Shown: piece after piece, positions 42,214-54,321 of the stretch
Layout of the letters: each line of letters starts with the position of its first letter
Position numbering within the stretch: position 1 is the first letter of the stretch
The notes under the pieces: model-generated
The model's input: the letters and a program-made list of their open reading frames with translations, nothing else
Databases searched by the model: none
What the model was told of the DNA's origin: nothing
Made by a program: the position numbers and the translations under genes
Assembly (NCBI RefSeq): GCF_010500615.1
Contig: NZ_JAAGNX010000001.1
Coordinates: 883,531 to 947,530, forward strand
From: Oceanipulchritudo coccoides
Lineage (GTDB): Bacteria > Verrucomicrobiota > Verrucomicrobiia > Opitutales > Oceanipulchritudinaceae
Direction of reading: 5' to 3'
Length of the DNA stretch: 64,000 nucleotides

Positions 42214-43305
42214 CTAGAAACTCCCCTCGATATTTTCGAGTTCCGTTGTCGGTTGCCGATCGACCGGCAGGCCAACTCTTCGCACGGTATTCCCTTCCTG
42301 CCACTCTCCCTCAACAATTGTTTGAATCGGATGCTCCGGAATGCCCGAGGCTCCCTTGCGGACGGAGACGATCAAGTCATCAACCGCTTTTCTGCCGATC
42401 TGCCTGGCGATCTGGTCAATGCCGGCGATCTCACTTTCATCCCCCGGTTTGTCCAGCACGCTGAATCCAAGGTCTTCGGGAATTTTAATGCCCAGCTTGG
42501 AGCAGGTCTCCATCAATTCTGAATCCATTGAGATGATCGCCTCGATCTTGTGTCGGCTAAGCCATTCCTTGAAGGCCCGCCTGTCCACATTACCCGAATG
42601 ATAGTAATGGCTCGGCAAGGTCCGCTTCGTGAATTGGCGTACGGTTCTCCAATGAAGGTAGGCGGAAGTCCACCGGTGGTAGGAACGCATATCTGTCACC
42701 GAGGAAATACAGAGGCCGATCCTCTTGTATCCAAGGTCTTCAAGCCCGGCCAGGGACTGCGCCATCCCCATGTAGTGATTGTGACGGACCAGATCGAGTT
42801 TCGGATAGGAGAGGGTCGCGCCAATCTGTACACAGCAAAACTTATCCCAGTCGATATCCAGCTGCTTTCCGATCATTTCCTTCCCCAGCGGGGCAATAAT
42901 GATGCCGTCCACCCCGCGTGACCATAGAAAACTTGTCAGCTTCCCTTTGCCAAAGCGCCGGCTTCTTGCCCACACCGGAAGCAATTTATAGCCGTAAGCT
43001 TGTGCTTCCGCCTTCGCTCCCTCGTAGCAACCGCTCTCGTGGTAATACTTCCGCCACGAATCCTCCGTCTCGTCCGTCGTGATGTACGCCAGCTCACCGA
43101 GCACGTTCGGGCTCCCACGCGATTGCGCCATCTCGTACATCAACCGCGCAAGCTTCGGGTTCGGCACATAGCCCAATTCCTCCGCCGCCTTCTGTATCTT
43201 CTTGCGCGTCGTCTCCGCTACCGACGGCTCCTCACGCAGGGCACGCGATACCGTCATCTTCGATACGCCGACTTTCTTCGCAATGTCGCTTAAATGGACT
43301 TTCAT
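42214..43305 (-). CDS. LacI-family transcriptional regulator of the glycan locus
   Basis: 363 residues from the ATG at 43305. The N-terminal helix-turn-helix and hinge region VHLSDIAKKVGVSKMTVSRAL is classic LacI, including the Y/V-S-x-x-T-V-S-R-x-L recognition helix. The C-terminal part is the periplasmic-binding-like ligand domain (for example VDGIIIAPLGKE, LGYKRIGLCI and KIPEDLGFSVLDKPG), where a glycan-derived sugar would bind. Its own start is 19 bp from a TGATACGTAACA site, and four related sites precede other genes of the locus, so it is the likely regulator of all five and of itself. The effector is unknown. Confidence 0.92.
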   Translation of the reverse strand: MKVHLSDIAKKVGVSKMTVSRALREEPSVAETTRKKIQKAAEELGYVPNPKLARLMYEMAQSRGSPNVLGELAYITTDETEDSWRKYYHESGCYEGAKAEAQAYGYKLLPVWARSRRFGKGKLTSFLWSRGVDGIIIAPLGKEMIGKQLDIDWDKFCCVQIGATLSYPKLDLVRHNHYMGMAQSLAGLEDLGYKRIGLCISSVTDMRSYHRWTSAYLHWRTVRQFTKRTLPSHYYHSGNVDRRAFKEWLSRHKIEAIISMDSELMETCSKLGIKIPEDLGFSVLDKPGDESEIAGIDQIARQIGRKAVDDLIVSVRKGASGIPEHPIQTIVEGEWQEGNTVRRVGLPVDRQPTTELENIEGSF

Positions 43306-43323
43306 GGGGACTTTCTCCTGGGG

Positions 43324-43335
43324 TGATACGTAACA
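43324..43335 (-). promoter_or_regulatory. LacI-type operator candidate 2 (autoregulatory)
   Basis: TGATACGTAACA, 19 bp upstream of the regulator ATG and 114 bp before the divergent gene at 43449. A weaker TACGTA (43368-43373) lies in the same gap and may be a second half-site. Confidence 0.65.
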
Positions 43336-43448
43336 TTCCCAAAGCGGAATCAAGATTGCAATGGCAAATACGTAGCCTTTTGAATAACTCTATAATTCCC
43401 TAATGGAACCCTGTTCCCCAACCTCAATAAAGAACCTCTAGTTGACTC

Positions 43449-44771
43449 ATGAAATATCTCCCAAAACAAATCCTTGTATACACACTGCCATTGATGGCTG
43501 CCCTGAGCGCAAATGCCGCGAATTTCATAGGCCCGGATGGTGGTCTCTGGAGTGACGGGGCGAACTGGGACACGGGATCTGTCCCGGCGGCATCCGAGGA
43601 AGCCCGTCATTCCATAGCTGAAAACCGCAGCATCGACATTGACGGGGACTATACCATCAGGTCGTTGCTGGACGGATTTGCCGATGGCGGCTTAACCCTT
43701 GGCGGAACCGGCACACTGACGGTGGACGTTGCCTCCGCAGCCGAGACGAAGGGGCTTGATAATGCGACCGGCAATGCTGGAAATTTTCTTCAGGTAAACG
43801 GCAATATTGAAGTCAACAACTCGGGTGCGGGACGGACCATCATCCGCAACTCGAACAGTGCCTCGAATGTCTTCCGCTTCAATCCCGGCAGTAATCTGAT
43901 CCTCACGACGGGTCTGACAACACGAGGAAACATCGGTTTTATTGAATTCAATGGCAAGGTGAGCGGAGGTCCGCTCTTTATCGGATCAAACAACCCGACT
44001 TTCAATGAGGGACATGACAGCACCGAGTTGAACTCGGTGGTCTTCTTCAATGGCGGAGTTCTGAAAATCAACGGTGGCACAGTCCTCGCGCCTGCGGGAA
44101 AGTTCCAGGTAAACGGGACCAACACCAAACTCGAACTCAACGGTGCAAACTCGGTGAACGGGGCCTTCTTTTCAATTGCCGGATCAAATGACCTGCTGGT
44201 TGACATTAATTCCGACCAAGAGGATCTGGGTGGATTCGTTATGACAACTGGTTCGCTCAGTTTTGATGTCGACCCGGCTGTGACCAAAGTCAACTTTGCC
44301 AGCTCATTTTTCCGTGAATGGGGTACGGGGACCGTGACCATCACGGGCTTCAAGGAAAATACCATCCGCTTCGGAGTAAATGGCGCCGGGCTCACCAGTG
44401 AGCAATTGTCGGCCATTAATGGCGGTATTTACAGCCTTTCTCCCGATGGCTATCTTACTGAGGCAGCTTTTGAATATTGGGCCCGATTTGAAGTCGATGC
44501 AGAGGGATGGGTTTCCCTGAGTCCATGGATTGACGAGAATGCTTACGTCAACACGGCGCCCTTCATCGGGATTGAGAATATCGGTTGGACCTACATGGAC
44601 GAAGCAGTTGGTGTCCGGGGAAGAGGTTGGATTTACTTCTATGATCTGGAGGCCCTGGACATATCCGTCGTCGATGGCACGGATTATGGATACAGTTCCA
44701 CCTTGGAAAATTGGGTTTACCTGCCTTTTGATATTTCGGGGGAGACAGCTTCCTGGTTATTTCTGTTTTAA
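43449..44771 (+). CDS. Secreted beta-rich protein, paralogue 1 (aromatic C-terminal module)
   Basis: 440 residues. A signal peptide (cleavage near ALSANA) is followed by a body of about 310 residues with repeated Gly/Asn/Thr strands, starting LWSDGANWDTGSVPA, an autotransporter-like beta-helix style. Shared blocks with the genes at 51586 and 53019 include KFQVNGTNTKLELNGAN, LLVDINSDQEDLGGF and IRFGVNGAGLTSEQL. After SPDGYL the homology stops and a Trp/Tyr-rich end follows (IGWTYMDEA, GRGWIYFYD, LENWVYLPF), like the C-terminus at 20316-21365. It could coat the cell surface or bind glycan. It is divergent from the regulator and 12 bp before the beta-helix gene. Confidence 0.8.
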   Translation: MKYLPKQILVYTLPLMAALSANAANFIGPDGGLWSDGANWDTGSVPAASEEARHSIAENRSIDIDGDYTIRSLLDGFADGGLTLGGTGTLTVDVASAAETKGLDNATGNAGNFLQVNGNIEVNNSGAGRTIIRNSNSASNVFRFNPGSNLILTTGLTTRGNIGFIEFNGKVSGGPLFIGSNNPTFNEGHDSTELNSVVFFNGGVLKINGGTVLAPAGKFQVNGTNTKLELNGANSVNGAFFSIAGSNDLLVDINSDQEDLGGFVMTTGSLSFDVDPAVTKVNFASSFFREWGTGTVTITGFKENTIRFGVNGAGLTSEQLSAINGGIYSLSPDGYLTEAAFEYWARFEVDAEGWVSLSPWIDENAYVNTAPFIGIENIGWTYMDEAVGVRGRGWIYFYDLEALDISVVDGTDYGYSSTLENWVYLPFDISGETASWLFLF

Positions 44772-44783
44772 ATAAGCCCAAAC

Positions 44784-46406
44784 GTGCAACACCCCAAGTT
44801 TTCCTTCCCTTTCTTTAATCCTGCCAAGAAGGGTCCAGTTACTCTGGTTCTCTGCCTTCTTTGCTTCCTGTTGGCGTCTCCGGTCTCAGCGAATAAATTG
44901 CAATGGGCTATCGACCAGGCGGTGAAGAGTGGACAGACGATGATCAAGCTCCCGGCTGGGCGCTATGAGTTGGCACCGGTCAATGGATCACACCTTAGGT
45001 TTGCTGGTTTGAAGGATGTGACTATCGACGCACGCGATGTGGAGATTGTCTGCACCGAGACCACGGTGGCAGTGAATATTTTAAACTGCAAAAACCTGCG
45101 TATCGTCGGGTTGACAGTTGATTACGACCCACTCCCTTTCACACAGGGCCGCATCGTGGAGATTGCGGAGGACCGGAAGTCCCACGTTATTGAGATCACG
45201 GATGGCTTTCCTCCTGCGGACAAGGCCTATGTCTTCAAGCATGCCGTCTATACACCGGAGGGTGAGCTTCGCTTCGGGAACTATTACCGCTTTCAACTGG
45301 AAGTCCTTTCCCCGAAGCGCCTCAGGATCTTTGGTCTGCCTTCCCACGTGGATGGAGGTGAGCAAATCGGCGACACCGTTGTTGTTGGAGCGCAGCACTT
45401 GAATGGGCCCTACATTCCCCATGCGATCATCACGAAAAACTCAGTGGGGACGGTCTTTTATGAGGTGACGCTTTATAGTTCCCCTTGTTTCGGGTTCTTC
45501 GAAGTCGCCTCTTCCGAATCAGTCTACATGAACTGTGTCATTGACCGCAGGGAAGGGCGCATGCGGTCACTGAATGCGGATGCCTTTCACAGCAAGCATG
45601 CGGAAGTCGGACCAAAGATAGTAAACTGCAAAGCCATGTGGCAGTCTGACGACTGCGTGAACATTTGCGGGGACTACTATTTGGTTGCGAGCGGAAAGGG
45701 CCGCAAGTGGCGGCTTCTCGGGAACAGGGAATTTCATCTGAAACCGGGTGACCCGTTGGAACTTGTCACCCCTGAGGGCAAGCGCCTGCCGGATGCGGTG
45801 GTAATTTCCGTGGAGAAGGAGGGAGAGGTCAGCGCAAAGGACCGGGCCTTTTTCAACGCTCTCAATTTAAACCAAAAGGTTAAGAACAGCATGAGAGCTG
45901 TTTATTCGGTTGAATTGGACCACGATGTGGACCTGCCGCCCGGCAGCGTAATGGCTTCGACTAAACGGAAGGGAAACGGATTTGCGGTGATGAATTGTAC
46001 CTTCGGCAATGTGCGATCCCGGGGAATCTTGATCAAGGCAAGCGAAGGAGAAATCAGTAAAAATCTCATTGTCAACACCCACATGCAATCCATCAAGATC
46101 TCACCGGAGTACCACTGGCTTGAATCGGGATTCAGCCGGAATCTGGTCGTTAAGGGGAACCGGATCATCAATCCCGGCAGGGAAGCCATTTCGATTAAGG
46201 GCGTTGGCCCGCATCCCGGACACGAGAATATTGATGTGATCAACAATTCGATCCAGACCGGCGTATTTCCCGCGGTCAACATCCAGTCGGTACGAAACGG
46301 GAAAGTTTCTTCCAATGAGATCCGCTCAATGGACGGCACGCTCCAAACCGACGCCATCGAGGTGAAGTTTTGTGAGAATTTTGAGACAAATCATGAAATC
46401 AACTAA
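44784..46406 (+). CDS. Secreted right-handed beta-helix protein (GH110-related)
   Basis: 540 residues from a GTG at 44784. After a signal peptide comes the start LQWAIDQAVKSGQTMIKLPAG and a long series of beta-helix turns. It shares the key block of the GH110-like proteins in the locus: ADAFHSKHAEVG, then WQSDDCVNICGDYYL with a D-D pair and Asn-x-x-Gly, and RSRGILIKASEGEI. The Asp pair and DAFH in this order resemble the GH110 catalytic region, so it is probably an alpha-galactosidase-like or related glycanase, though substitutions (I-C-G for the usual I/V-H-G) leave activity open. It overlaps the next sulfatase gene by 14 bp. Confidence 0.75.
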   Translation: MQHPKFSFPFFNPAKKGPVTLVLCLLCFLLASPVSANKLQWAIDQAVKSGQTMIKLPAGRYELAPVNGSHLRFAGLKDVTIDARDVEIVCTETTVAVNILNCKNLRIVGLTVDYDPLPFTQGRIVEIAEDRKSHVIEITDGFPPADKAYVFKHAVYTPEGELRFGNYYRFQLEVLSPKRLRIFGLPSHVDGGEQIGDTVVVGAQHLNGPYIPHAIITKNSVGTVFYEVTLYSSPCFGFFEVASSESVYMNCVIDRREGRMRSLNADAFHSKHAEVGPKIVNCKAMWQSDDCVNICGDYYLVASGKGRKWRLLGNREFHLKPGDPLELVTPEGKRLPDAVVISVEKEGEVSAKDRAFFNALNLNQKVKNSMRAVYSVELDHDVDLPPGSVMASTKRKGNGFAVMNCTFGNVRSRGILIKASEGEISKNLIVNTHMQSIKISPEYHWLESGFSRNLVVKGNRIINPGREAISIKGVGPHPGHENIDVINNSIQTGVFPAVNIQSVRNGKVSSNEIRSMDGTLQTDAIEVKFCENFETNHEIN

Positions 46407-47856
46407 GGGAACGCTCCTGGTATTCGTCTGGAGCGCAGTGTTCCTTTCGATCAATGCTGTAGCAGCATACAACTCCCATTTGCTGGAGCCCGTTGAAAGT
46501 CCCGGGCAACCCAACATCCTTTGGATATACATCGAGGACACGAATGCGTGGATGAGTTGCTACGGGGACACGGTGATCCAGACCCCGAATATTGACCAGC
46601 TGGCCGGTGAGGGAATCCGCTTCAACCGGGCCTACATGACATCGGGAGTCTGTTCGCCGACGCGCTCGGCCATTATCACGGGAATGTACCAGACTTCCAT
46701 TGGGGCGCACGAACACTACAGTTCCTTCTCCATGTTCCGCGGGAACAAGATGGAAGTGTGGGACCCCAACCATCTCGGTGTTAAGACCCTGCCGGAGATA
46801 TTCCGTGCCGCGGGTTACTACACATTCAATGAGGGAAAATTTCACTACAATTTTGTTTTCGACCCGGACACACTCTATCATCGGCACGCCGAGAAAATGG
46901 GGTTCAAGGGGGCCGAAAACGGGACCGAATGGACCGGCCGCAAGCCGGGCCAACCTTTCTTCGGGCAGATCCAGTTAATAGGAGGGAAGTTTAAGAATCC
47001 GGAACCGGTTGTGAAACCCGAGGATGTCCAGGTGCATCCCTACTATCCGGACCATCCGATCATCCGGGAAGTAACGGCAAATCACTACAACACAATCCTC
47101 GAGCTGGACAAGGAGTTGGAGACAATCGTGGCAGCCCTTAAGCGGGACGGCCTGTATGAAAACACGGTCATCTTTTTCTTCTCGGACCACGGATGCAATC
47201 TGCCACGACACAAACAGTTTCTTTATGATGAAAGCATTCGCGTCCCGTTTATTCTCGCTGGTCCGAAGGTACCCGCCGGAAAGGTCCGCGACGATCTCGT
47301 CAGCTCCCTTGACATCAGCGCCACCTCCCTTGAGCTGGCGAATATTCCCGTGCCAGACAACATGCACGGCATGGACATGCTGGCGGATGGCTTTCATCGG
47401 GATTACGTGATTGCCGCCCGCGACCGCTGCGATTTCACCATTGATCGCATTCGTGCGGTTACCTCCAAGCGCTACAAGTATATCCGCAACTTCATGACGG
47501 ATCGCCCTTATCTGCAGCCGAACTACCGGAGCGATTGGCCGGAAATGCAGATTCTTGAGGAATTGTATCAGCAGGGCGAACTCAACGAGATCCAGGCGCA
47601 TTTTGCCGGGCCTGAAAGGCCTGCTGAGGAGTTCTACGACCTGCAGGAAGATCCCCATGAGACCATTAATCTCGTGCATTCGGTTAAACGGGAGCATGCT
47701 GTCGCCCTTGCTGAGCACAGGGACATTCTCAATCGCTGGATTCTTGAAACTGATGACAAGGGTCGCTTCCCTGAATCGGAAAACGCCCTCCGGGCGGTCA
47801 TTGACCGGTGGGGGGACAAGGCCGTTAATCCGGAATACGACGAAGTCCGGAATTAA
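46393..47856 (+). CDS. Sulfatase (formylglycine type) 4
   Basis: About 487 residues from the ATG at 46393, inside the end of the beta-helix gene. A Sec-type leader, PNILWIYIEDTNAWMSCYGD with the metal site, and GVCSPTRSAIITGMYQ with the formylglycine Cys (C-x-P-T-R). The later SDHGCNLPRHKQFLYDESIRVPF resembles N-sulfoglucosamine sulfohydrolase-like members. It is co-transcribed with the paralogue and beta-helix genes from 43449 on, and converges with the beta-helix gene at 47912, 55 bp apart. Confidence 0.93.
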   Translation: MKSTKGTLLVFVWSAVFLSINAVAAYNSHLLEPVESPGQPNILWIYIEDTNAWMSCYGDTVIQTPNIDQLAGEGIRFNRAYMTSGVCSPTRSAIITGMYQTSIGAHEHYSSFSMFRGNKMEVWDPNHLGVKTLPEIFRAAGYYTFNEGKFHYNFVFDPDTLYHRHAEKMGFKGAENGTEWTGRKPGQPFFGQIQLIGGKFKNPEPVVKPEDVQVHPYYPDHPIIREVTANHYNTILELDKELETIVAALKRDGLYENTVIFFFSDHGCNLPRHKQFLYDESIRVPFILAGPKVPAGKVRDDLVSSLDISATSLELANIPVPDNMHGMDMLADGFHRDYVIAARDRCDFTIDRIRAVTSKRYKYIRNFMTDRPYLQPNYRSDWPEMQILEELYQQGELNEIQAHFAGPERPAEEFYDLQEDPHETINLVHSVKREHAVALAEHRDILNRWILETDDKGRFPESENALRAVIDRWGDKAVNPEYDEVRN

Positions 47857-47911
47857 GCTTAAGTTCCGCTCCCGCTTCCAGTTGATGATACAATTTCTGG
47901 ACAAGTAGCCG

Positions 47912-49768
47912 TCACTGACCGATGCGCAACCTCATGAACTGCGCCGAAGATTCACCCACTGAAAGACGGTTCGTCACCTTCTCGAAGAGCCCATCACCGA
48001 TAGTCTCGCTGCCAGTTTCTTTGACGCGATCGGTGTCCCAGCCCTCGAGGAGTAAGGCTTCAGTCGCCTCCACCCGATAGTTGATCCCTCGAGAGACATG
48101 ATCTCGACGACGCCGGTAAACATATTCCAAATAAACAGAACCTGATTCAGCAGTCATCTTGAAGGCAGGTTGGATAACTGAGGCATCCCGAATGGTGGGA
48201 TCACCCCCCAGCGCATATTCCATGAAATTGCTGAAGCCATCAGGTTCCAGATCGGCAGTTTCAAGAGCATCCTGGCTGGTCACTCCATGTCCCTTGATCC
48301 AGATCGCATAGTCGGGGGGCTCTGAAACGATTTCCGAGGCAACTGAATGATTTCCTGAAAAATCCACCGATTCGATGTAATAGCTGTGGATGATTCCGTC
48401 CAGTGCCCAGAGGTCGTTATAAACTGTATCCGTTGTGATGGCATACTCCCACCAGACTCCATTCAGCTGCCGGTAGATCTGGTAGAAATGCAGGTCTGGC
48501 TCTGTGTTTGCATCCCAGCTCAGCCGGCAGGTACCGGAGCCATCGACCAGCGAAAGCCCGATCGGTTGGGCAGGGGCAATCGCCTCTGCACCAGCATCAC
48601 CAGCCCCTTCGATGGGGCCGCGTGAAACAATGACGTTTCCCTCAAAGCGAATATTGCTGGCCTCTTCTGTCATCAGGATGCCCCGCGCAAAGCTGTCGCG
48701 GAAGACACAGTTTCTAACAACACCGCCATTCACATTGAAGAAGGCCACACAATCATCCCCGGTCGATTCGATGTAGCAATTTTCAACTACCATGTTCGTG
48801 GACACCGCATCAGGTGAAGGCTGGCCCATTTGTGGGCCTCCCGCGGGGGATGACAGACAGGGCGTTTGCCCGTTGATGGGCGGTGAACGTTCGAAACGGC
48901 AACCGGTAAAGCGCACATTACTGGTTCCTTGGCGAAAAACACCGCGGGTCGAATGTGTCCACTTCATGTTTTCAAATATAATGTCATCCGAATCACTGAA
49001 CCAGAAAGTGTTTCCGGTGTGCTTGGATTTGATGGCAACGTATTCGCCAATTTCATAATTGGTAAATTCACCTGCAAAGGCTCTGACCATGCGCCAGGTC
49101 ACAATTCCCTCAGGGCTCGTGGACAATGCGTATGAATCGGTTTCCGACCATCTCACTTGTTCATTCTTTCCGTCGGTAATAACGAGCGGGTCTGTCTTAC
49201 TGGCCGTGTAGCGGCGCAAATACAATCCCTGCGGAGCCGACCAGCGAACAATCTCATCCGGCATGGGGAAGCCGTCATGGATTTCCAGATCGATGTAATC
49301 AGGGTTCGCATCCAAGTTCACTGCCACGACCGTGCCTTGGCTGACTGTATACTGGGCCCGCGTCATATGCATGTCGCGGAAGGTGACGTGCGCCAAGTTT
49401 CTACCGTAAATCTGAGTAGTGTCAGTGTCGGAGAAAACCAGCACGGTCTCCTCCATTCCCGCACCCTGAAAGATTAGCCGACCTTCGTCTGCAGGGCCAA
49501 GGAGGTAGCCGTTTCTAAGATCAATGCTTCTTCCATCAGCCCCGGTAATGTCATAGGTTCCCGCAGGTATGTGAATGATGATCGTGTCATCCGGTGTAGT
49601 CAAAAAATGGTCATGCGCAGCTGTGATGGCGCTGTCGAATCCCGATTCGGAAATTCCCCAGTCAGCCAGATCCCAATTCACCGTGGCCGCGGTGGCTTGG
49701 AAGGGGAGGCACGCTGTAAATACCATCAAGCTATTGAGGCTGGCTTTCATAGTTTTTCGCTTCTTCAC
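47912..49768 (-). CDS. Secreted beta-helix protein with FN3-like and C-terminal modules
   Basis: 618 residues; a second ATG at 49750 may be the start. A signal sequence is followed by a beta-helix of about 380 residues with TGDDCVAFFNVNGGVV and ARGILMTEEASNIRFEGN, a relative of the GH110-like group but with N-V-N-G in place of N-V-H-G. Then come a fibronectin-III-like segment (about residues 395-480; PIGLSLVDGSGTCRLSWD) and a C-terminal domain ending SSAQFMRLRIG. It may act on or bind the glycan backbone. It is the last gene of the minus-strand group after sulfatase 5. Confidence 0.72.
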   Translation of the reverse strand: MKKRKTMKASLNSLMVFTACLPFQATAATVNWDLADWGISESGFDSAITAAHDHFLTTPDDTIIIHIPAGTYDITGADGRSIDLRNGYLLGPADEGRLIFQGAGMEETVLVFSDTDTTQIYGRNLAHVTFRDMHMTRAQYTVSQGTVVAVNLDANPDYIDLEIHDGFPMPDEIVRWSAPQGLYLRRYTASKTDPLVITDGKNEQVRWSETDSYALSTSPEGIVTWRMVRAFAGEFTNYEIGEYVAIKSKHTGNTFWFSDSDDIIFENMKWTHSTRGVFRQGTSNVRFTGCRFERSPPINGQTPCLSSPAGGPQMGQPSPDAVSTNMVVENCYIESTGDDCVAFFNVNGGVVRNCVFRDSFARGILMTEEASNIRFEGNVIVSRGPIEGAGDAGAEAIAPAQPIGLSLVDGSGTCRLSWDANTEPDLHFYQIYRQLNGVWWEYAITTDTVYNDLWALDGIIHSYYIESVDFSGNHSVASEIVSEPPDYAIWIKGHGVTSQDALETADLEPDGFSNFMEYALGGDPTIRDASVIQPAFKMTAESGSVYLEYVYRRRRDHVSRGINYRVEATEALLLEGWDTDRVKETGSETIGDGLFEKVTNRLSVGESSAQFMRLRIGQ

Positions 49769-49811
49769 CCAGCCCGCTAATTGGAATCACGACGAAGTCC
49801 GGAACGTCGGA

Positions 49812-51518
49812 CTAGCGGACTGATTTATCCGGTCCGCTGCTTCCGGATTCGGGGATAAAGGGCTCTTTCTCAACCTTGGTCAACAGCATGTGATAATCAT
49901 CCTGTTGGCTGGTGACAGGTTCCTTTAATCCGGCAAGCCATTCGCGCATGACTTCGTCCATTGCCTCAACCTTGTCCCAATGCTTGGCCGCCACATTGTA
50001 GCGTTGCTGCCGGTCCATACTGGTGTCGTAAAGCATAACTTGGGCGGGAAGGCCGTCCGGGAGGCTTTCATACAAGCCGGCCCGGGTGGGGGTGACGCGC
50101 ATGAAGAGGTGCGTCCCGTCAAAATGCCAGGCGTACAAGGGAGCCTTTATGCCGTCGCGCGTATTGTTTTCACCATTTCCTTCGTAGTAGTATGACCAGC
50201 GTGAAGACTGGATGCTTACGGAGTTGAGGAAATCGCGTGGACCTTCCTCCTCTTCACCAGTAAGGTAAGGGATAAAGCTTTTGCCGCTTATGCCATCGGG
50301 TATGGCAACGTCCGCATGGTCGAGGATGGTCGGCATCAAGTCGGCCAGGCTGATAATCTCCTCAGTGATGCCGGTCTGTTTGATGCTTTTTCCCCAGATA
50401 ACGAGCGGAACATTCAATCCGCCAAACCATCCGGTCCCTTTGCCTCCACGGTTCGGTGCATTGTAGGGCGGCACGTCATACAACGTGCACCCATTGTCGG
50501 TCGTGAAGAGGAACAGGGTGTTCTCCAATTCGCCATTTGCCTCAAGGGCAGCGAAGATTTGGCGGATGCCCTCATCCATGGCCAGCATGTGGCCGGCATA
50601 CTCGTCAGTGAACCGGTTTCCCGTATCAAACTTTTCGCTGTAGTGCTTTGGAGGGGGAACAATCCCGCCGTGGAGGGTCATGGGGGCGTAATAGAGGAAG
50701 AAGGGCTTGTCCTCCTTCATGGCCGAATCGATGAATTGCGTGGCCTTGTCGCTCAGCAAATCGGTCAAAAACTCCCCGGGCGGACGGGGCGGTACGCGCT
50801 CATGGTTTTCCCAAAGTTCCTCCGCCTCGAAATACTTGCTGTCGTGGCTGTTGAAGCCGTAGTAATAATCAAATCCCCTGTCCAGGGGATGTTGCCCGGG
50901 AAAGGAGGAGCTCTGGTATCCTGATCCTTTAAGAATGTTCCTCAATTCTGGCCAGCGGCCTTTGTAGAATTGAGGAATCGGCAGGGATTCGCCCAGTTCT
51001 TCGGTCCAGGCCTTTTCGATGAGTGTAGGGTCCTTCTTCGCGACATGCCATTTCCCGATCATCGCTGTGGTGTACCCTGCCGCCTTCAGGGGCTCCGCCA
51101 TGACGACCCGGTCAGCTGGTATGCCATAGTCGTCAACATCCCGGTTCCAGTAAGCGCCCCATTCCTGTTGGAAGGTGCCGGTCAATAATCCCGCCCGGCT
51201 CGGAGCGCACAGGGAGGCTGTGGAAAAACAGTTGTCAAAGATGATCCCTTCATCGGCCAACTTGTCCAGGAACGGCATGCAGTTACGCGCCGCCTTGATG
51301 TGCTCGATCGGATCGACTTCTCCCAGATGGCCCCGCTTTTCCGCGTAGGAAGCGAGGATTTCCGGCTCGAGATCGTTCACCTGCAGGCGGTCCGCATGGA
51401 AGGGAAACCATCCCGTTCCAATGTCATCGGCCATGATCAGCACAACATTTGGCTGGTCGGCTTGCAGGGATACGGTTGCCAGCAGGCAGGGAAGTAACGA
51501 TTTTAGAAGATTAGACAT
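49812..51518 (-). CDS. Sulfatase (formylglycine type) 5
   Basis: 568 residues. A signal peptide (SLLPCLLATVSLQA) is followed by PNVVLIMADDIGTGWFPF with the metal site, SLCAPSRAGLLTG with the formylglycine Cys, GKWHVAKKDP and TDNGCTLYDVPPYNAPNRGGKG. It is the longest of the five, with an insertion after the maturation motif. It is an arylsulfatase-like enzyme. It lies between the PEP-CTERM paralogue (67 bp upstream) and the beta-helix gene (43 bp downstream) on the minus strand. Confidence 0.93.
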   Translation of the reverse strand: MSNLLKSLLPCLLATVSLQADQPNVVLIMADDIGTGWFPFHADRLQVNDLEPEILASYAEKRGHLGEVDPIEHIKAARNCMPFLDKLADEGIIFDNCFSTASLCAPSRAGLLTGTFQQEWGAYWNRDVDDYGIPADRVVMAEPLKAAGYTTAMIGKWHVAKKDPTLIEKAWTEELGESLPIPQFYKGRWPELRNILKGSGYQSSSFPGQHPLDRGFDYYYGFNSHDSKYFEAEELWENHERVPPRPPGEFLTDLLSDKATQFIDSAMKEDKPFFLYYAPMTLHGGIVPPPKHYSEKFDTGNRFTDEYAGHMLAMDEGIRQIFAALEANGELENTLFLFTTDNGCTLYDVPPYNAPNRGGKGTGWFGGLNVPLVIWGKSIKQTGITEEIISLADLMPTILDHADVAIPDGISGKSFIPYLTGEEEEGPRDFLNSVSIQSSRWSYYYEGNGENNTRDGIKAPLYAWHFDGTHLFMRVTPTRAGLYESLPDGLPAQVMLYDTSMDRQQRYNVAAKHWDKVEAMDEVMREWLAGLKEPVTSQQDDYHMLLTKVEKEPFIPESGSSGPDKSVR

Positions 51519-51585
51519 AGATTGGCCCTGTTGAGTGTTAAGACAGTCAACCTGAATAAGGACTTAGCTGGAAGCAGCAATTGTT

Positions 51586-52728
51586 TTAGCGGCGCTTGCG
51601 GCGCACCATAATGAAGCCAAGGGCCAATCCTCCTGCCAGCAGGGCAAAGGTGGAGGGCTCCGGAACGGCTGTCAGGAAGCCACTGCTATCAAGGGAGTAT
51701 GCGCCGCCGTCGATGGCTGTAAGTTGATTTAAAGTCAGTCCGTTTGCATCTGTTCCAAAGCGAATGACCCCTTCCTGGAAGCCGGTAATGGCGATAGTGC
51801 CGCCAGCCCAATTCGACTCAAAGGCGGAACTGTCATCGAAGGCGAGCAGGGTGACGGAAGGATCCAAATCGATGGTCAGCGTTCCCCCGATGTCGATGAG
51901 GTCTCCCATGTTATTCTGGTCTGCGTTCACATCGACCAGGAAAGCATTGGTGCCGGAGACAACAATGTTTGCATCGTTTACGGCGTCGGCGGCATTCAGC
52001 TCCAGTTCGGCATTACTCGTGTTGACCTGGAATTTCCGCCCCGTATTCAGGACAGTACCTCCGTCAACGGCGACTTTGGCGGCACCAAGAAGAACAAAAT
52101 CCTGTCCGAAATTTGAACTGTTGTGCCCAACCCCGAAGGAAACGTTCGACGAGTTGATTCGAATGGCCGCCAAACTGGGTTGCAGGATACCATTCAGTTG
52201 ATATTCGCCGCCAGCAGCCTGCTCTATCTGTACAAGGGAGTTTACGGTCAGCCTGCTGGTCGTATCAAAAAGCATGATATTGCCAGCGGAATTGTTATTC
52301 TTGAAATAGGTGATGCCACCGAGAGTGTTATTCACGGTGAGGTTGATGTTATTGAACCGAAGCGTGCTGCCGGAAGTGCCGGTTGCGTTTACGAGGCCAT
52401 CGGCGTTGGCAGCGGTATTGATGTCGACGGTCAAGCTACCACCGGCGCTAGCGTACAATGTATGAACAAACCCTGCACCGCCAAAGCCATCAGTGTATTT
52501 GTTGATCGTGTAATTGCCGTCAACAAGGTTGATCGCCAGGTCTGAACCGCCGAAGAAACCGGCTGTATCCCCATTGGTCGTGGGAACTCCGTCGGGATTC
52601 CAGTTTGCGGCATCGCCCCACACGTTGGAGCTGGGTTCACCATTGTCCCAGGAATAGCTTAAGGCATGGGAGGTTTGGAAGGCCAAAAGAAGGATGGATG
52701 AGGTTGTGATAAGGGTTATTCTATTCAT
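51586..52728 (-). CDS. Secreted beta-rich protein, paralogue 2 (PEP-CTERM)
   Basis: 380 residues. A signal peptide (about residues 1-22) is followed by the same beta-rich body as the genes at 43449 and 53019 (for example SNVWGDAANWNPDGVPTT, NVSFGVGHNSSNFGQDFVL, KFQVNTSNAELELNAAD). The protein ends VPEPSTFALLAGGLALGF then VRRKRR: a Pro-Glu-Pro motif, a membrane helix and an Arg/Lys tail, the PEP-CTERM signal sorted by exosortase/EpsH. No exosortase gene is in the window. Operator candidate 3 lies 94 bp upstream of its start. It is presumably displayed at or released from the cell surface. Confidence 0.85.
   Translation of the reverse strand: MNRITLITTSSILLLAFQTSHALSYSWDNGEPSSNVWGDAANWNPDGVPTTNGDTAGFFGGSDLAINLVDGNYTINKYTDGFGGAGFVHTLYASAGGSLTVDINTAANADGLVNATGTSGSTLRFNNINLTVNNTLGGITYFKNNNSAGNIMLFDTTSRLTVNSLVQIEQAAGGEYQLNGILQPSLAAIRINSSNVSFGVGHNSSNFGQDFVLLGAAKVAVDGGTVLNTGRKFQVNTSNAELELNAADAVNDANIVVSGTNAFLVDVNADQNNMGDLIDIGGTLTIDLDPSVTLLAFDDSSAFESNWAGGTIAITGFQEGVIRFGTDANGLTLNQLTAIDGGAYSLDSSGFLTAVPEPSTFALLAGGLALGFIMVRRKRR
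51690..52728. repeat. Tandem duplication unit A (paralogue 2 body)
   Basis: The DNA of this stretch is closely similar to 53170-54215; long runs are identical, such as CAGTTTGCGGCATC, and the two share the same 94-95 bp distance from gene start to operator. The similarity ends just before the C-terminal coding part of each gene, which differs. Confidence 0.75.
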
Positions 52729-52821
52729 GATTTGCTAGGAGCTTTGGATTGGTTTCTTTGTGACTCGATTTCCACTCAAGTCCAAAGATAGGCAAAGAGA
52801 AGGGCGATCTGCGGAATTGTA

Positions 52822-52833
52822 TGTTACGTAGCA
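52822..52833 (-). promoter_or_regulatory. LacI-type operator candidate 3
   Basis: TGTTACGTAGCA, one to two bases different from the other four sites, 94 bp upstream of the PEP-CTERM paralogue. A TACAAT hexamer that could serve as -10 follows directly in the direction of the gene. Confidence 0.6.
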
Positions 52834-52958
52834 TTCGGCGGATATAAATGGGCACTCCGGCAAGGCGGTTTCTGAAGAAAGTTTCCAGCCGGAGAAGCAT
52901 TACCTTGACCGGGAATAAAACCCGGAAAATTCGTGACGAGGAAGGGGGTCAAGATTCA

Positions 52959-53003
52959 TGTTATCCCTCAGGAAAGGGGTGGGCGCCTTTCCTGAGGATA
53001 ACA
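52959..53003. terminator. Long inverted repeat downstream of paralogue 3
   Basis: TGTTATCCCTCAGGAAAGG pairs with CCTTTCCTGAGGATAACA around an 8-nt loop, giving about 18 pairs with one bulged C. It lies 16 bp past the stop of the minus-strand gene at 53019. No T-run follows on that strand, so it is either a terminator-like or an mRNA-stabilising hairpin. Confidence 0.55.
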
Positions 53004-53018
53004 GGTTGAATTTACCGA

Positions 53019-54215
53019 TTACTCAAACCGTGCCCGGAAAAACAGCTCTTCCCCGGGATAGACCAGAAAGTCACCCTCATCGGCTGGTTCCCAATTGATC
53101 AAATCGGTGCTCTTTTCAAGGGAAACGGTGATGACAACGGGGTCAGGGAATGAATTGTTCTGCAAAAAGCCATCGGCATCGAGGAAGAAGCCTGCACCGA
53201 ACGCAGCCAATTGGGCTGCAGTGAGCCCCGTGGCATCGGTTCCGAAGCGGATGACCTTGTTACGGAAGTTCACGATTGAAACGGAACCGCCGGCCCATGC
53301 TGCCTCGTGGGATGAGCTGTTGTTGAAAGCGAGGTCACCGACAGAGGGAGCCAGATCGATGGTCAGCGTTCCGCCAATATCAACGATGTCACCCATGTTT
53401 GTCTGGGATGCATTTACATCGACGAGGAAGTTATTGGTGCCGCTGATACTGATGTTTGCGCCGTTTATTGCGTCGGCGGCATTCAGCTCCAGTTCGGCAG
53501 TGCTCGTGTTGACTTGGAATTTCCGGCCCGAATTCAGAACGGTACCGCCGTCGACAGCGACCTTGGCGGCACCAAGAAGAACAAAATCCTGCCCGAAAGT
53601 CGAGCTGTTGTGGCCAACTCCGAAGGAAACGTTTGACGAGGCGATTCGAATGGCCGCCAAACTGGGTTGCAGGATGCCATTCAGTTGATATGCACCGCCA
53701 GCGGCCTGCTCTATCTGGACAAGGGTGTTTACGGTCAAATTGCTGGTCGTATCAAAGAGCATGACATTGCCAGCGGCATTGTTATTCTTGAAATAGGTGA
53801 TGCCGCCAAGCGAGTTGCTGACGTTGAGATTGATGTTATTGAACCGGAGTGTGCCGCCGGTACTGCCGGTGGCGTTTACGATGCCATCTGCGTTTCCGGC
53901 GTTATTGACATCAATTGTCAGGCTGCCACCGGCGTTGGCGTAGATTGTATGCACAAATCCTTCACCGCCGAAGCCGTCAGTGTATTTGCTAATTGTATAG
54001 CTTCCGGCAACGAGGTTGATCGCGAGGTCTGAGCCGCCAAAGAAGCCGGCCGTATCGGCGCTGGTCGTAGGAACGCCGTCGGGATTCCAGTTTGCGGCAT
54101 CACCCCACACATTGGAGCCGGGTTCACCGTTGTCCCAGGAATAGTCTACGGCCTGGGAGGTTTGGAATGCCAGAAGCACAAGGCAAGAGGTTGTGATTAG
54201 GGATAGATATTTCAT
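53019..54215 (-). CDS. Secreted beta-rich protein, paralogue 3 (STDLINW-type C-terminus)
   Basis: 398 residues. The N-terminal signal and the body are close to paralogue 2 (SNVWGDAANWNPDGVPTT, NVSFGVGHNSSTFGQDFVL, KFQVNTSTAELELNAAD). After DADGFL it leaves the family and ends with VSLEKSTDLINWEPA and ELFFRARFE, the module also seen, with variation, at the end of the RCC1 protein and of the beta-helix proteins. It carries no PEP-CTERM and no aromatic module. Operator candidate 4 lies 95 bp upstream. The function of the body is not known; it probably forms a repeat surface fold. Confidence 0.82.
   Translation of the reverse strand: MKYLSLITTSCLVLLAFQTSQAVDYSWDNGEPGSNVWGDAANWNPDGVPTTSADTAGFFGGSDLAINLVAGSYTISKYTDGFGGEGFVHTIYANAGGSLTIDVNNAGNADGIVNATGSTGGTLRFNNINLNVSNSLGGITYFKNNNAAGNVMLFDTTSNLTVNTLVQIEQAAGGAYQLNGILQPSLAAIRIASSNVSFGVGHNSSTFGQDFVLLGAAKVAVDGGTVLNSGRKFQVNTSTAELELNAADAINGANISISGTNNFLVDVNASQTNMGDIVDIGGTLTIDLAPSVGDLAFNNSSSHEAAWAGGSVSIVNFRNKVIRFGTDATGLTAAQLAAFGAGFFLDADGFLQNNSFPDPVVITVSLEKSTDLINWEPADEGDFLVYPGEELFFRARFE
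53170..54215. repeat. Tandem duplication unit B (paralogue 3 body)
   Basis: Partner of the unit at 51690-52728. Boundaries are estimated by eye from the loss of protein similarity after DADGFL and the signal peptide start. Confidence 0.75.
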
Positions 54216-54309: not shown

Positions 54310-54321
54310 TGATACGTAACA
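54310..54321 (-). promoter_or_regulatory. LacI-type operator candidate 4
   Basis: TGATACGTAACA, 95 bp upstream of paralogue 3 and 71 bp past the end of the symporter gene, which reads in the same direction. Its distance to the gene start matches that of candidate 3 before paralogue 2. Confidence 0.65.

Follow-up and report, generated by a model that had tools for sequence, protein, structure and literature searches.

Copies of one secreted body under different C-terminal ends, one of them an unnamed Trp/Tyr-rich domain, in Oceanipulchritudo coccoides

The analysed DNA (the window) is a stretch of 64,000 nucleotides from Oceanipulchritudo coccoides (contig NZ_JAAGNX010000001.1, positions 883,531 to 947,530), in which three open frames encode the proteins called here A, B and C (Table 1). 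The original prediction described these as secreted paralogues with a common body of about 310 residues, which part right after a D/S-G-F/Y-L block into three different ends, and which lie near the operators of the locus. Protein alignments confirmed the homology of the bodies, the identity being 76.9% over 360 aa for B and C, 39.4% over 322 aa (E 1e-60) for A and B and 34.7% over 380 residues for A and C; only the length of the body proved slightly greater, approx. 335-350 residues in each protein. The sequences diverge just past DGYL in A (residue ~336), SGFL in B (~352) and DGFL in C (~351), and the three ends are indeed unrelated: the WY profile described below matched A only, the PEP-CTERM model matched B, and C matched the STD domain. 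Signal peptides were called by a crude hydrophobicity rule.

Table 1. Features of the A, B and C locus (positions in the window) and pairs of genes with the same body and different ends
Feature	Position	Strand	Remark
LacI-family regulator, to which the operators likely belong	42214..43353	-	PF00356, 65.2 bits
Operator TGATACGTAACA, 113 bp upstream of A, between A and the LacI gene	43324..43335	+	exact match
Protein A	43449-44771	+	open frame
A, signal peptide and shared body (residues 1-337)	43449..44459	+	39% identity to B, 322 aa
A, WY tail, composed of a full unit (residues 342-400) plus a half unit (403-440)	44472..44768	+	HMM E 2e-14
Protein B	51586-52728	-	open frame
B, PEP-CTERM: PEPS motif, hydrophobic helix, RRKRR cluster (residues 355-380 of 380)	51589..51666	-	TIGR02595, PF07589
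B, signal peptide and shared body (residues 1-352)	51673..52728	-	77% identity to C
Operator TGCTACGTAACA, 93 bp before B	52822..52833	-	one mismatch
Protein C	53019-54215	-	open frame
C, STD tail: STDLxxW...FFR domain in its short form (residues 357-398)	53022..53147	-	58% identity to end of C1:244787+
C, signal peptide and shared body (residues 1-351)	53163..54215	-	77% identity to B
Operator TGATACGTAACA, 94 bp before C	54310..54321	+	exact match
Same-body pair	C2:174808 WY / 196790 PEP		
Same-body pair	C1:828519 WY / 834066 PEP		
Same-body pair	C2:1007758 WY / 1026381 PEP		
Same-body pair	C3:27175 PEP / 635324 WY		

In the modelled structure of A the confidence of the body was about 65-90 (pLDDT) from residue ~110 to 339 and dropped to ~30 past residue 340, and this collapse supports the boundary between body and tail. 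According to the model the body is all beta and probably helical. Its comparison with solved folds gave no significant match, only weak ones, several of which were beta-helical. When GTDB contigs were searched with the body profile, only two weak Bacteroidetes matches were obtained, both to the N-terminal motif, and part of the body was present in only one of 54 relatives, there in proteins ending in PEP-CTERM.

The predicted nearness to the operators was also borne out, a site being located 93-113 bp upstream of each of the three genes. Five TGATACGTAACA-type sites with at most one mismatch could be observed in the window (37717, 43324, 52822, 54310 and 63352) and none in 288 kb of other genome stretches. 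They are likely to constitute a locus-specific regulon, the sites of which the LacI-family protein would bind. The LacI open frame probably starts at an ATG near 43305 and not at the TTG listed for it; in that case the operator at 43324 is upstream of the LacI gene and autoregulation is possible. Since A, B and C each have a site at a similar distance, the three forms are probably induced together, which would argue for their simultaneous placement at different sites and against a switch.

The end of B exceeded the cut-offs of both PEP-CTERM models (28.5 bits with TIGR02595, curated cut-off 16; 26.4 bits with PF07589, cut-off 20.7), and judged from these scores it is a genuine PEP-CTERM, a recognised sorting signal. 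The PEP-CTERM and its exosortase (EpsH) were defined in PMC1569441. As in that system, the N-terminus of B is signal-like and its C-terminus has a PEP motif, a hydrophobic helix and a basic cluster ahead of the stop, and the genome has approx. 25 PEP-CTERM proteins and three exosortase homologues, all of which matched PF09721 and scored above the TIGR04178 cut-off; the C / NxxR / HxxxG pattern is visible in the homologue at C2:792453. Both PEP-CTERM and exosortase are widespread across the order. While most PEP-CTERM proteins in PMC1569441 were without relatives beyond the tag, here the bodies also occur with other ends within the one genome. A closely related pair of PEP-CTERM genes (C2:510252 and 511155) was noticed near an exosortase-like gene, C2:513954, in the stretch C2:508000-526000.

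In the case of C, the end matched the STD profile with E 3e-22, C itself being in the seed, and the C1:244787+ protein, which has such a similar end (Table 1), carries an unrelated body. The STDLxxW...FFR domain has no name in Pfam. Its long form was detected in 28 of 55 genomes, in many families of the order, and the short end of C appears to belong to this form by the motif residues shared in the alignment, which gave no strong score. Strict C-terminal position is not kept, as internal copies are found in C3:326727 and C3:354154. Since the domain can be internal and is spread across the order, it is not a sorting module; thus the view of the ends as C-terminal sorting modules held for the PEP-CTERM of B and failed for the end of C.

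The end of A was recognised (full E 2e-14) by a profile derived from six unrelated proteins encoded in the same genome; neither B nor C matched it. The domain, termed here the WY tail, is rich in Trp and Tyr, has approx. 59 residues, is usually present as a single unit and has the consensus xxWAGYxxxxxGxVDTGxWLGxxxVxxxPWVYSxxLxxWxYxPExxxxxxGxWxY. It has no match in Pfam or NCBIfam; none of 53 WY tails matched the NCBIfam models, sorting domains included, at E 0.1, and no description of it was found in the library of papers searched. In the sampled genome stretches there were at least 36 WY, at least 25 PEP-CTERM and at least 5 narrow STD proteins, all of these counts being minima because only stretches around matches were sampled. 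In 35 of the 36 proteins the WY tail is separated from the stop by 0-4 residues, while in the remaining one 65 further residues follow it; by the hydrophobicity rule nearly all of the WY proteins have a signal-like N-terminus. None of the 25 PEP-CTERM proteins has a WY tail ahead of the PEP-CTERM, and in the genome G009 one WY tail sits near an N-terminus. The carriers include GH10 and GH16 enzymes, a GH76/88-like enzyme, a CBM96 beta-helix protein, an FGE-sulfatase-type protein and a multiheme cytochrome c. As two WY-tailed proteins already have CBM6/35 or CBM96, the tail does not just supply them with a module for substrate binding. The multiheme cytochrome c with a WY tail (C3:667702; L106:3706-5244, minus strand) hints at an electron-transfer protein held at the surface. 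Longer Trp/Tyr-rich ends (such as WVWTSRDTYPILYSYSSGTWL) at C2:1008853 and C1:1268677, missed by the present WY profile, look like a second, divergent tail of this type.

The WY tail was present in 16 of 17 genomes of the family to which the window belongs, with up to 45 matches. In a class-wide draw it was detected at E<=1e-4 in 4 of 286 genomes, all four of this family, and in none of the 282 genomes from other families of the class; at E<=0.01, three genomes of the order from outside this family showed one or two weak matches. In G011, of the same family, WY tails are present while no PEP-CTERM or exosortase was detected, so that an exosortase is apparently not required for the WY tail.

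The only protein found when the PDB was searched with the WY profile was LytB, through its choline-binding repeats (7pl5 / 7pl2), the E-value being 9.6e-5 with 11 sequences and 3.8e-6 with 53 sequences; the matches to these solved repeats in the latter search had E 3.8e-6 and 3.2e-5. The alignment is in register over the repeated aromatic hairpins. Two column-permuted controls of the same composition did not find LytB, the best unrelated chain having E 0.05 in one and none being returned in the other. The Pfam choline-binding model PF01473 matched no WY tail, and its one weak match in the genome, below the cut-off, was elsewhere. Because the profile match to the PDB was accompanied by clean shuffled controls and yet PF01473 does not recognise the tails, we only suggest that the WY tail may work like a choline-binding module and may be its distant relative. 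The usually single unit of the tail differs from the choline-binding repeats, its host, unlike that of LytB, is an outer-membrane-type bacterium, and its ligand is here a presumed one. The predicted structure of the tail was of low confidence, with a pLDDT of 41 alone and ~30 within full-length A.

The genes of B and C form a tandem pair with 84% DNA identity over 866 nt, as had been predicted. It had also been proposed that the end was swapped after the duplication. In the DNA-level alignment a sharp swap point was looked for and not found; the similarity fades over the approx. 90 codons that precede the visible junction, and there is no break at the junction itself. Owing to this gradual decay, replacement of the end after duplication and gene conversion of the bodies of the tandem copies are indistinguishable, the latter fitting the pair as well, and thus the proposed swap stands as one reading of two. 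The silent divergence between B and C was higher past residue 295 (11 of 17 against 49 of 134 fourfold sites, Fisher p 0.035), a rise that is suggestive only, as other cut positions gave p 0.06-0.13.

When the genome was searched for the same bodies under other ends, the exchange was found to recur. After removal of tails and signal peptides the proteins were grouped into body families, and tail types were mixed in 7 of the 12 families with two or more tailed members, about as many as expected by chance, since random dealing of the tails gave 7.4 mixed families on average. A second tandem triple on one body, C1:243741 (PEP-CTERM), 244787 (STD) and 246079 (WY) in the stretch C1:238000-256000, carries all three ends just as A, B and C do, and the four same-body pairs of Table 1 combine WY and PEP-CTERM ends; a WY/PEP-CTERM set on one body was also seen in another genus (G009). 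The nearest relatives of the tails of A and C are on bodies without detectable relation to A or C, which indicates that tails moved between bodies. The identity of C1:247059 and 249192 breaks at the tail. In the neighbours C3:353090 and 354154 (stretch C3:349000-368000) a body of ~200 residues is ~90% identical in DNA, and both signal peptide and tail differ, as if the body behaved as a cassette. From these comparisons the C-terminal module is probably an interchangeable part in this bacterial family. Protein families whose members carry GlyGly-CTERM, LPXTG or PEP-CTERM were described in PMC3237569, and the present families likewise unite one body with alternative C-terminal processing signals. 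The three-tail example given there spans different species and involves signals with a membrane helix only, whereas here a single genome shows the exchange, between tandem copies that are probably co-regulated, and the main alternative end has no membrane helix.

We propose that A, B and C are co-regulated copies of one body with alternative surface-retention ends, the PEP-CTERM acting via an exosortase and the WY tail by binding a glycan, and we regard this as evenly poised between holding and failing. Upon induction of a polysaccharide locus the three copies of a secreted, probably beta-helical body would be produced together. At the inner membrane an exosortase of the cell would recognise the PEP-CTERM of B, the body of which would then be released or attached on the exopolysaccharide side. 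The WY tail of A would fold as aromatic beta-hairpins resembling choline-binding repeats and would retain the protein by non-covalent contact with a glycan specific to the family, in the envelope or the matrix, while the STD end of C would be a generic small domain with no known address. Tandem duplication or recombination would place one body under different ends. The more general statement, that the WY tail is an unnamed, choline-binding-like retention signal of one family, parallel to the exosortase system and freely exchanged with the PEP-CTERM, is put forward tentatively and falls somewhat short of an even chance.

Against the retention of these proteins by their ends stand the failure of PF01473 to recognise the tails, the low confidence of the tail model, the WY tail followed by 65 residues and the one near an N-terminus; moreover, neutral domain shuffling would likewise distribute the tails over the bodies at random. 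Ordinary shuffling, with the WY and STD domains as generic adhesion or carbohydrate-binding domains that tune binding at one and the same extracellular place and do not direct delivery, is a possible but rather doubtful explanation. It agrees with the internal, order-wide STD domain, with the WY tails of GH10, GH16 and other polysaccharide enzymes and with the randomness of tail type relative to body, but it does not account well for the almost strictly C-terminal WY tails, never ahead of a PEP-CTERM among the 25, for the named CBMs already present in two of the bearers, or for a recognised sorting signal, the PEP-CTERM, on the same body. The C-terminal position, the many unrelated passengers, a multiheme cytochrome among them, and the restriction to one family would also suit a recognition end of a dedicated export route across the outer membrane, in the style of the type IX secretion C-terminal domain. 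This we consider unlikely, since the tails matched none of the NCBIfam sorting models, SprA was not found in the 55 genomes searched, a search made without positive control, and the likeness found is to a binding repeat and not to a sorting domain. Finally, mis-assembly, frameshift or pseudogene ends might create apparent differences between tails. The genome is in 52 contigs, and nothing was found in support of such an artefact; the three frames are open and these ends are found again in tens of independent genes and in other genomes, by which this extremely improbable explanation is refuted.

The destinations of PEP-CTERM proteins and the contribution of the exosortase are hard to test, because the bodies rarely have relatives without the tag. 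The matched pairs and triples, with one body under PEP-CTERM, WY and STD ends, constitute a natural tail-exchange experiment, and they extend the pattern of PMC3237569 to one genome, in which tandem copies share operators and an alternative end lacks a membrane helix. They also define a domain without a name, carried by dozens of secreted proteins per genome, among them a multiheme cytochrome and enzymes acting on polysaccharides. The recurrent swapping of tails suggests that in this family it is the tail and not the body that decides where such proteins are held.
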